Shown piece by piece: positions 40,163 through 43,599 of a stretch of 64,000 nucleotides of DNA. The position numbers and the translations under genes are program-made. The stretch is from Arboricoccus pini (GTDB lineage: Bacteria; Pseudomonadota; Alphaproteobacteria; Geminicoccales; Geminicoccaceae). The notes beneath the pieces were generated by a model. The model searched no databases and had not been told where the DNA came from. It saw only the letters and a list, made by a program, of their open reading frames with translations. The stretch is from contig NZ_FYEH01000002.1 of assembly GCF_900187945.1 (NCBI RefSeq), positions 124,001 to 188,000 on the forward strand, in the 5' to 3' direction. Position 1 is the stretch's first letter. Each line of letters starts with the position of its first letter.

Positions 40163-40237
40163 TGGCTCCGGCGGTAGGACTCGAACCTACGACCCGACGG
40201 TTAACAGCCGTCTGCTCTACCACTGAGCTACGCCGGA
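40163..40237 (-). tRNA. tRNA-Asn (GTT)
   Basis: A 75-base cloverleaf including an encoded CCA. The acceptor stem TCCGGCG pairs with CGCCGGA. The anticodon loop CTGTTAA carries GTT on a GACGG/CCGTC stem, and the T arm is GTAGG-TTCGAGT-CCTAC. A -10-like TATGAC lies about 25 bases upstream (40261-40266), without a clear -35. Confidence 0.97.
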
Positions 40238-40352: not shown

Positions 40353-40426
40353 TGGAGGCCCGGGCCGGAATCGAACCGACGTACAAGGATTTGCAGTCCT
40401 CTGCATGACCACTCTGCCACCGGGCC
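40353..40426 (-). tRNA. tRNA-Cys (GCA)
   Basis: A 74-base cloverleaf with encoded CCA. The acceptor GGCCCGG pairs with CCGGGCC, the anticodon loop CTGCAAA gives GCA, and the T loop is TTCGATT. It is 115 bases upstream of tRNA-Asn on the same strand and has its own promoter-like sequence at 40443-40472. Confidence 0.97.
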
Positions 40427-40598: not shown

Positions 40599-41252
40599 AT
40601 GTCCGATTATGCCGTCGCCCGCCGAAACATGGTCGAGAGCCAGCTCCGGACCAATCGGATCGACGACCCGGGCATCATCGAGGCCATGTTGACCATTCCA
40701 AGGGAGCTCTTCGTGCCGCCCGCGTTCAAGAGCGTGGCCTATACCGACGAGGATCTGGCCTTCGGCGATGGCCGCCGGCTGATCGAGCCCCTGGCACTGG
40801 CCAAGCTCCTGCAGAGCGCCGCCATCCGGCCGGACCAGACGGTCCTCGTGATCGGCTGCGACACGGGCTATGCCGCGGCCGTGGCCGGCCGTCTCGGCGC
40901 CAGCGTCCAGCTCTTGACCGAACGGCATGACGACACGACGGAGATCGATCGCCGCCTGAGGGATCTCGGAATCGACAATGTCAGCGTCGAGACCGGCAGA
41001 CTAAAAGAGGGCCTACCGGCAAAGGCACCTTTCGATGTCATTCTCCTTGCAGGCTCGGTGCGCGCGATCCCGAGCGAGCTGACACAGCAGCTCAAGGAGG
41101 GAGGGCGCCTCGCCTGCGTCGTTCAGGATGACCGAGCCGGTCGCGTCACCATTGCAACACGCGTGAATGGAACGATCGGCAAGGTAACGCCGTTCGACGC
41201 CTGGCTCCCTGAACTTGTCACATTCCGACCCGCGCCGAGCTTCGTCTTTTAA
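40599..41252 (+). CDS. pcm: Protein-L-isoaspartate O-methyltransferase family protein
   Basis: A SAM-dependent methyltransferase that repairs isoaspartyl residues in damaged proteins. The ATG at 40599 (MSDYAVARRNMVESQL) gives 217 residues, the usual length. Motifs: RIDDPGIIEAMLTIPRELFVPP, YTDEDLAFGDGRRLIEPLALAKLL, and the SAM-binding VLVIGCDTGYAAAVAGRLGA. Glycine motif I is slightly altered compared with the canonical G-x-G-x-G of the PIMT family (GCDTGY). This altered subfamily precedes tolC in many Alphaproteobacteria, and its repair activity there is not assured. Confidence 0.9.
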   Translation: MSDYAVARRNMVESQLRTNRIDDPGIIEAMLTIPRELFVPPAFKSVAYTDEDLAFGDGRRLIEPLALAKLLQSAAIRPDQTVLVIGCDTGYAAAVAGRLGASVQLLTERHDDTTEIDRRLRDLGIDNVSVETGRLKEGLPAKAPFDVILLAGSVRAIPSELTQQLKEGGRLACVVQDDRAGRVTIATRVNGTIGKVTPFDAWLPELVTFRPAPSFVF

Positions 41253-41290: not shown

Positions 41291-41364
41291 TCATCTCCAC
41301 GTTATCTATCTCCGGGGTTGCGCGAGAGTATCTCCGCTAGGCGAACTTCGCTAAGCGCCATTTG

Positions 41365-42759
41365 ATGAGCACCGGGCGCTTTTTGATCCTGATGACGTGC
41401 ATGTGGCTCGGCATATCGCCATGCGCTGCCGAGACACTCAGGGACGTGCTGCTCGACGCGATCGATGCCAATCCAGCACTGAAGAGCGCCAGGGAACGGG
41501 TGCGCGGCGCGCAAGCACTGGTCGACGCCGCCAAGGCCGGCGGGCGGCCTACCGTCTCCTTGAATTCGAGCGAAGGCATAAGCTATCTCGACGCCGACCG
41601 GCAGACGACGACGCTTGGCGCCACGCGACAGGCCCTGGTCGTTCGCCAGCCGTTGGTCTCCGGCGGCCAAATCACCGGCGACATTGAGCGCACCCAGGGC
41701 AATCTTAGAGCGGAACGCGCCAGGCTCCGCGATGCCGAACAGCAGATCCTGGCAACGGTGGCTGGTACCTACGCCGCCCTGATCCGCGATCGTGCTCTTC
41801 TCGCCCTGGCGACCGCCAAGGAAAAACGACTAAAACAAGCCTTCGACCAGACGCGGCTGCGCTTTCGCTTCGGCGATGTTACGATCACTGACATCGCGCA
41901 GGCGGAAACCCGCCTGGCCGGTGCCGCCCACGCGCAAGCCGTGGCCGAGGCGGGCGTGCAGGCGAGCGAAGCGGAATTCATGCGGCTGGTGGGACGGCCG
42001 CCGTCGCGGATTCTGCTGCCGCCGCCCGAAGCGCCGGGCCTGCCGCGCTCGCAGGCCGAGGCTGAAGGCCTGGCGCAGGATCATCCAAGCCTGGTCGCGA
42101 CCGCGAACGACGTCGATTCGGCAAGAGGGGCTCTGGCCGTCGCCAAAAGCGAGCGCCGCCCCAAGGTCGCACTCGAGACTCAATTGGCCTACGCGACCGA
42201 TCCGGATCGCTATACCGATCGGCAGACGGAGGCGTCCATAGGGGCTGTCGTCACCGTCCCGCTCTACCAGGGCGGTGGTGCCGCGGCGCGCGAACATGCG
42301 GCCCAGGCCGAACTGTCACGTCGCCGCTATGACCTGGAGGACCGTAGGCTGGCGGTCACGCTCAATGCCACGCAGGCTTGGCAGACCCTCATGCTGGCGC
42401 GAAGTTCCGTCAGGGCGCTGGAGATCCAGGCGCGTGCGGCAGAGATCGCCGCCGATGGCGTGCGGCACGAGGCGCTCATCGGCCTGCGGACGGTCCTGGA
42501 CGTCCTGGATGCGGAAAACGAGCTCTTGCGGCCCGCTCGGAACTGGTTCGCGCGCAAGCGGATCTTGTCACCGCGAGCTATGCGCTCCTGGCCGCCTCGG
42601 GCCGATTGGACGAGCGGGCTCTTGGCCTCGCCGCGGACTCCGATGCCGCTCCTTAATCCTCGCATCGTTAACCTTTTCGATATTCTTGGTATGTATCAAC
42701 GATCACAAGGCAAGTGCCTGTTCGCCCACTCCTTGCAGAACATTCTGGAGCCGTCATGA
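41365..42759 (+). CDS. tolC: TolC-family outer membrane efflux protein, frameshifted near its 3' end
   Basis: An outer-membrane efflux channel subunit. A signal peptide (FLILMTCMWLGISPCAAETL, about 6-24) precedes tandem OEP repeats: DVLLDAIDANPALKSARERV, ARLRDAEQQILATVAGTYAAL, and RLRFRFGDVTITDIAQAETRL in the first half, and VTVPLYQGGGAAAREHAAQAE and AEIAADGVRHEALIGLRTVL in the second. After ENELL at 42526-42528 the frame reads into non-homologous Arg/Trp/Pro-rich sequence ending at 42759. In the next frame, ARSELVRAQADLVTASYALLA (42531 onward) continues the family pattern and ends at TAA 42654-42656. Restoring one G after 42528 would give 430 residues. As sequenced, the last C-terminal helix is lost: either a genuine recent mutation or a one-base sequencing error. 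Confidence 0.88.
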   Translation: MSTGRFLILMTCMWLGISPCAAETLRDVLLDAIDANPALKSARERVRGAQALVDAAKAGGRPTVSLNSSEGISYLDADRQTTTLGATRQALVVRQPLVSGGQITGDIERTQGNLRAERARLRDAEQQILATVAGTYAALIRDRALLALATAKEKRLKQAFDQTRLRFRFGDVTITDIAQAETRLAGAAHAQAVAEAGVQASEAEFMRLVGRPPSRILLPPPEAPGLPRSQAEAEGLAQDHPSLVATANDVDSARGALAVAKSERRPKVALETQLAYATDPDRYTDRQTEASIGAVVTVPLYQGGGAAAREHAAQAELSRRRYDLEDRRLAVTLNATQAWQTLMLARSSVRALEIQARAAEIAADGVRHEALIGLRTVLDVLDAENELLRPARNWFARKRILSPRAMRSWPPRADWTSGLLASPRTPMPLLNPRIVNLFDILGMYQRSQGKCLFAHSLQNILEPS

Positions 42760-43418
42760 CCGATGAAAGCAACCGCGCGCCCTCGCGAGGCGCGCCGGTC
42801 CCGTCGATGGAAGACATCATGACGTCGATCCGCCGGATGATCGTCAACGAGCCGGAGGGTCAGTCGCCGGCACCGCCCGCACCAGCCCCCCGCCCCAGCA
42901 GCGTGCCCCAGGCAAAGCAGGACGAGGAGCTGCCCCGGCCGCAATTCCTGCGCGAGCGCAGCGAGCCGCAGCGGCCGCGGGAGACGGCGCCAATCCGTCC
43001 GGAGCCAAGCCCCCTGGAGCGGAGCGATAGCGAGATCCCCAGGCCCTCCTTCATCGCCAACCCTCCTCCTCAAGCGCTTGGCAGCCAGGCGGAATGGCGC
43101 GAGACACAGCCCGTGACGGTCACGCCTCCAGTCTCGACCGAGCCCGCCAATCCCACCGTCAAACCCGCGCCTTCAGCCCAGAATTCGGCGGATAACGGTC
43201 TCCTTTCCTCGGCAGCAGCCATGGCCAGCAGTTCCGCCTTCGCGCGCCTCCAGGAAGCGGTAGCCCCGACGCGAGCACGCGCGCCGTCGATCGACGAACT
43301 CGTCGTCGAGATGATGCGGCCAATGTTGAAGGACTGGCTGGATGCCAACCTGCCGCAGCTCGTCGAGCGCATCGTCGAAGAAGAGGTGGCCCGGCTGGTC
43401 AAGCGCGAAAGCCGCTAG
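42756..43418 (+). CDS. popZ: PopZ-like polar organising protein (DUF2497)
   Basis: A 220-residue protein of the PopZ/DUF2497 family, which in Caulobacter forms a polar hub that anchors the chromosome origin. The ATG at 42756 follows a GGAG. The N-terminal helix PSMEDIMTSIRRMIVNEPEG (about 12-31) is the conserved partner-binding part. A long Pro/Glu/Ala-rich disordered region (about 32-145) follows, then the C-terminal oligomerisation helices SIDELVVEMMRPMLKDWLD and LPQLVERIVEEEVARLVKR. Placement after tolC is conserved; valS, the usual next gene, is missing here. Whether it marks the pole in this organism is inference. Confidence 0.9.
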   Translation: MTDESNRAPSRGAPVPSMEDIMTSIRRMIVNEPEGQSPAPPAPAPRPSSVPQAKQDEELPRPQFLRERSEPQRPRETAPIRPEPSPLERSDSEIPRPSFIANPPPQALGSQAEWRETQPVTVTPPVSTEPANPTVKPAPSAQNSADNGLLSSAAAMASSSAFARLQEAVAPTRARAPSIDELVVEMMRPMLKDWLDANLPQLVERIVEEEVARLVKRESR

Positions 43419-43512: not shown

Positions 43513-43599
43513 TGGTGCCCGCTGCCGGACTCGAACCGGCACGCCCTTGAGGGCAACGGATTTTAAATCCGGTGCGTCTACCGATTTCGCCAAGCGGGC
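43513..43599 (-). tRNA. tRNA-Leu (TAA)
   Basis: An 87-base class II tRNA with encoded CCA. The acceptor GCCCGCT pairs with AGCGGGC. The anticodon loop on a CGGAT/ATCCG stem carries TAA, and a variable arm TGCCCTCAAGGGCG is followed by the T arm GCCGG-TTCGAGT-CCGGC. It converges with popZ. Confidence 0.97.

Follow-up and report, generated by a model that had tools for sequence, protein, structure and literature searches.

A probable early tolC pseudogene between pcm and popZ in Arboricoccus pini, and signs of repeated loss of the linked copy in Geminicoccaceae

The window analyzed here is a 64,000-nucleotide stretch of the Arboricoccus pini genome. It carries a tolC gene flanked by a pcm-like gene and popZ (Table 1), in the same order and on the same strand as in the pcm-tolC-popZ arrangement of Alphaproteobacteria. 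Among the matches listed, a pcm match and a popZ match both lie near tolC in 74 of 109 homologous loci, a set made up of 29 loci from Geminicoccaceae genomes and 80 others that includes some contigs twice (for example, L080 and L011). The window differs from this arrangement in that its tolC is frame-broken, and tolC is missing or reduced to a fragment in five other Geminicoccaceae genomes. As read, the tolC open reading frame (ORF) starts with the ATG at 41365 (or the TTG at 41362) and ends with a TGA that overlaps the popZ ATG (42756-42758) as ATGA, an overlap already described in an earlier note on this DNA. Upstream of pcm are genes for tRNA-Asn (40163-40237) and tRNA-Cys (40353-40426); downstream of popZ, a tRNA-Leu (taa) gene occupies 43513-43599 on the reverse strand.

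Table 1 Features of the pcm-tolC-popZ locus (positions in the window)
Feature	Position	Strand	Evidence or remark
pcm-like gene, protein-L-isoaspartate O-methyltransferase	40599..41252	+	NF001453, E 2.8e-35, 121.8 bits (below the cut-off of 188); upstream neighbour of tolC
tolC, 388 codons fitting the TolC family	41365..42528	+	PF02321, E 1.1e-46; TIGR01844 profile 2-374
Frame-break site, two bases where relatives carry one codon	42529..42530	+	Alignment and TIGR01844 matches
Other-frame TolC tail, 41 residues and stop	42531..42656	+	TIGR01844 profile 375-407; shuffle test
As-read tail, 76 residues unlike TolC, stop TGA 42757-42759	42529..42759	+	ORF reading; homologue comparison
popZ (PopZ/DUF2497 family)	42756..43418	+	PF10691, E 2.9e-23; NF052660, E 1.5e-30, 107.7 bits (below the cut-off of 125)

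The earlier note had claimed a one-base shift of the tolC frame near the C-terminus, and the family comparison confirms it. TIGR01844, a model of 414 positions, matches residues 22-389 of the as-read protein with its positions 2-374, and the separate translation of the other-frame tail takes up the model directly at the next position (E 0.005 for 41 residues). In five aligned relatives, one residue stands between the ELL that ends at 42528 in the window and the AR.. that begins at 42531, while the window has two bases there. The window tolC is one base short relative to the family. The fit to TolC extends to base 42528 as had been claimed, with a count of 388 codons from the ATG and not 387. 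The proposal of a missing G is sound as to the shortfall of one base, and the lost base may have been a G. A search of 42400-42760 for repeats that could have caused the base loss found none.

The two possible tails differ sharply in their likeness to TolC. Against 103 distinct homologue C-termini, the other-frame tail reached a mean score of 60.8, and 200 shuffles of the same tail gave a mean of 21.5 (sd 1.9, maximum 31.9). The as-read tail scored 20.8 against the same ends, which is the level of its own shuffles (20.3) and shows no likeness. The idea of a conserved as-read tail was rejected on these scores. The tail had been described as 78 unrelated residues, of which the lack of relation stands and the length is corrected to 76. 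Homologues sharing the as-read C-terminus, named beforehand as counter-evidence, were looked for and none occurs among the 103 distinct ends. Over the tail, the codon score is +3.7 in the other frame, -6.7 in the as-read one (first 42 codons) and -13.0 in the third. The first 388 codons of tolC contain no stop and score 0.14 per codon (genome mean 0.13), which suggests that the gene was under selection until lately.

Among the matches listed, the frame runs on for at least 56 residues beyond the matched part in 108 of the 109 homologous loci, and the exception, L020, reaches its contig end after 41 residues. The other-frame tail of the window stops 41 residues after the break, shorter than the shortest (56) of the 108 homologues with a complete end. 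It is TolC-like to about residue 33, after which its final residues match no family column, and the last conserved block of the family, about YDPxxHYxxVRxxWFG, is missing even in this frame. The block is also missing from L196, an open linked copy of a relative, and thus its absence alone is no sign of decay. Nor is it seen in the final 75 residues of L195 and L197. One unlinked TolC, L034 (G012:C472), has an ORF that continues for 418 residues of unrelated sequence past the matched part, and this long extension is perhaps another lost stop or frame break.

Compared with the TolC family (TIGR01844; OEP, PF02321; E. coli TolC, PDB 1EK9), the window gene shares the 388 fitting codons and keeps at least most of both OEP repeats, together with the gating residues. 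It differs in that the frame is lost within helix H8, the final block is missing, and the as-read protein scores 216.6 bits, below the curated TIGR01844 cut-off of 225.15. Residues 288-389 align to residues 280-381 of the E. coli TolC chains. By the offset of this alignment, R375, D379 and D382 correspond to the E. coli gate residues R367, D371 and D374, and all three are invariant in the homologue alignment A2. The break at residue 388 corresponds to about residue 380 of E. coli TolC, past D371 and D374 of the gate. The as-read protein was modelled with AlphaFold2 from 14 sequences (mean pLDDT 77.4, pTM 0.65). In this model, H7 spans residues 304-371 and H8 residues 377-408, which places the break twelve residues into H8, and the pLDDT is below 50 over residues 401-464. 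A set of four long coiled-coil helices, with the last returning to the equatorial domain, is not seen in the predicted model. An excerpt of PMC8277102 states that E. coli TolC requires Leu412, in the C-terminal equatorial part, to work, and an excerpt of PMC7396618 makes a similar statement on this part. The position of Leu412 falls beyond the break in the window. Because the frame is lost before the end of H8 and before this position, there are good grounds to infer from the alignment and the model that the as-read protein would not be a working channel.

A second tolC, which the earlier note had proposed to look for, is present and intact. The genome encodes four OEP proteins, including the window copy, and the TolC at C8:275 kb scores 315.7 bits, above the TIGR01844 cut-off. 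It departs from 2 of 56 conserved columns, compared with 13 of 56 for the window copy. In the tolC tree, it groups with the unlinked TolCs of Geminicoccaceae, whereas the window copy falls among the pcm-linked copies (17-row set, support 100/99). The genes of the two further outer-membrane efflux proteins map to C8:188 kb and C12:154 kb, where the adjoining ORFs resemble efflux adaptors by eye. The earlier note had expected that loss of the last coiled-coil helix would disrupt the channel. Most of this helix is indeed lost from the as-read protein; however, harm to the cell need not follow from harm to the window channel, because an intact second TolC is present. Such harm would be softened further, since two more outer-membrane efflux proteins are encoded and several relatives lack tolC at this locus.

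To compare evolutionary rates, pcm was used as the control gene, as it was for the family tree. In a comparison with 76 other loci that carry both genes, 13 of the 61 tolC columns conserved at the 90% level are broken in the window, and 28 of the 98 at the 80% level, while the most broken by any of the other 76 tolC rows is 8 and 16, respectively. The window pcm breaks none of its conserved columns in the same comparison (0/31 and 0/44). The window's end branch measures 1.25 in the tolC tree, where it exceeds that of every other row among the 62 listed, and 0.52 in the pcm tree. The rows of these column counts and of both trees are best hits, and thus the sample leaned towards conserved copies. 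We then added the linked copies of eight more Geminicoccaceae genomes, which the choice of best hits had skipped, giving 91 rows with the window. In this enlarged set, the window breaks 9 of 51 and 24 of 90 columns, while L197, L195, L196 and L199 break 18, 16, 11 and 9 of the 51 columns and 37, 34, 25 and 27 of the 90, all four above the window at the second level. These four fast relatives all have open frames and span two genera (g5 and g8), with L197, L195 and L196 coming from one genus. Fast evolution is therefore not peculiar to the window, and the idea that the window copy alone is under relaxed constraint is weakened by these equally or more divergent copies. Two other copies, L034 and L202, owe their high column counts to gaps only.

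To follow the linked tolC across the family, 31 Geminicoccaceae genomes were sorted by the positions of tolC, pcm and popZ and by inspection of the intervals, the genus of the window being represented by this genome only. The linked tolC is open in 21 genomes (including L020 and L202, which are cut by a contig end), absent in four, a fragment in one and frame-broken in one, the window; four genomes (G005, G010, G028 and G029) fall outside these classes. In the genomes without it, G003 (L191), G004 (L190), G011 (L194) and G027 (L193), pcm and popZ are adjacent, with 467, 525, 223 and 70 bases, respectively, separating the pcm match from the first popZ start. These intervals are too short for a tolC, and every TolC found in the four genomes is encoded at another place. 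The fragment, in G018, has an internal stop and lies between pcm and popZ at L192 1329-1613, with a weak match (E 3.5e-6). A further weak collinear tolC match at L192 1069-1143 extends these remains to 1069-1613. The nearest match of the fragment is a TolC elsewhere in the same genome (L021), at 33% identity. The G018 genome is 8.5 Mb in size with 7% contamination, and its fragment therefore counts less as evidence. In the pcm tree, a single-gene tree in which several forks are weak, G003 with G004, G011 with G027, and G018 occupy three places, the last beside genomes that keep tolC. These three places suggest at least three losses of the linked tolC apart from the window.

A frame broken by a single base raises the question of whether tolC is open in the organism and the deposited sequence has lost one base by error. 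The difference is indeed a single base, the other-frame tail is still TolC-like and the best-scoring of the three frames as coding sequence, tolC has no other stop or break, and 108 of the 109 homologous loci, among the matches listed, are open. A base-calling error would look the same in one assembly. However, 42348-42653 holds no base run of five or more, and the sole run of four in 42490-42560 is the AAAA at 42515. We also scanned the codons of the window and a further 400 kb (464 kb in total, 11% of the genome), with a two-strand scan in place of a single-strand version that was too noisy (201 calls). At the lenient setting, 42 calls were made, and in only 3 of them do both frames stay open over a stretch of at least 20 codons spanning the junction, namely tolC, an IS5 transposase (L079) and a phage Rha gene (L072). 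Three such calls in 464 kb do not point to an assembly with many indels. Most of the other lenient calls resemble boundaries between adjacent genes, as judged from full translations for the seven in the window and for L072 and L079, and from short ends otherwise. A stricter setting called the transposase and the Rha gene and passed over tolC because its tail is short, so that other breaks with short tails would also be missed. Moreover, the tolC losses in other Geminicoccaceae genomes are not sequencing errors of this genome. We regard an error in the deposited sequence as unlikely. On priors about assemblies and pseudogenes, a real mutation is favoured over an assembly error by a clear but not overwhelming degree. 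As to the two other calls, the IS5-family transposase (L079:6652-7418) extends over two frames whose halves match one family model. A split of this kind would be expected of a programmed-shift element or of a dead copy. The phage Rha-family regulator (L072:5695-6276) shows a codon-based frame switch at its 3' end.

Two further readings would keep the gene functional. Slipping ribosomes or RNA polymerase might make full-length TolC from the broken frame, and both frames are open over 42348-42653, so that a slip would meet no stop. However, neither an XXXYYYZ heptamer nor a base run of five or more occurs in this stretch. The RNA that follows the break (42529-42600) folds no more stably than its shuffles (z 0.12, with 95 of 200 as good), and a shift is needed in none of the 108 homologous loci, among the matches listed, whose ends are complete. 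A programmed frameshift was rejected, as slippery heptamer, base run, RNA structure and two-frame relative are all lacking, and slippage has a negligible probability in our assessment. Alternatively, the exchange of its C-terminus could have made the as-read protein a new, functional form whose translation is linked to that of popZ by the ATGA overlap. The overlap is real but could easily arise by chance, since every frame in that one register of three that has stayed open until the ATGA of the popZ start must end at it. The as-read tail itself has no likeness to homologues, a negative coding score over its first 42 codons and low predicted confidence, which makes a functional new form very improbable.

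We therefore consider it likely that the tolC of this conserved pcm-tolC-popZ order has been disabled by a real one-base loss and is an early pseudogene of a dispensable copy. Selection on the linked tolC may have relaxed because the other TolC covers its work, and the base was probably lost in the organism rather than in sequencing. The as-read protein probably lacks what is needed to close the helical barrel of the channel trimer, and would be inactive or degraded. Like a frameshifted pseudogene of a redundant paralogue, the window tolC has a one-base break, an intact paralogue elsewhere and faster evolution than its neighbour gene. With one break only and no stop in its first 388 codons, it would be a very early pseudogene, if real.

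As a single locus, this is ordinary gene decay, and the family-wide pattern is more interesting. In annotation, it would be wrong to call the as-read protein a working TolC or to take its 76-residue tail for a conserved domain. Channels of the TolC type work with many pumps, and their loss is often considered difficult. We see about an even chance that, in Geminicoccaceae, the linked TolC is a semi-redundant channel that is shed repeatedly, with the stages of its loss found side by side. The stages, on which our judgement is just as evenly balanced, would be copies that are open and conserved, open and fast-evolving, frame-broken as in the window, reduced to a fragment, and gone. Repeated loss of one of two TolC copies from the conserved site next to popZ would demonstrate that the presence of a second copy releases the first from selection, and Geminicoccaceae would, if this is true, provide a natural series for the handing over of channel work to a second copy.
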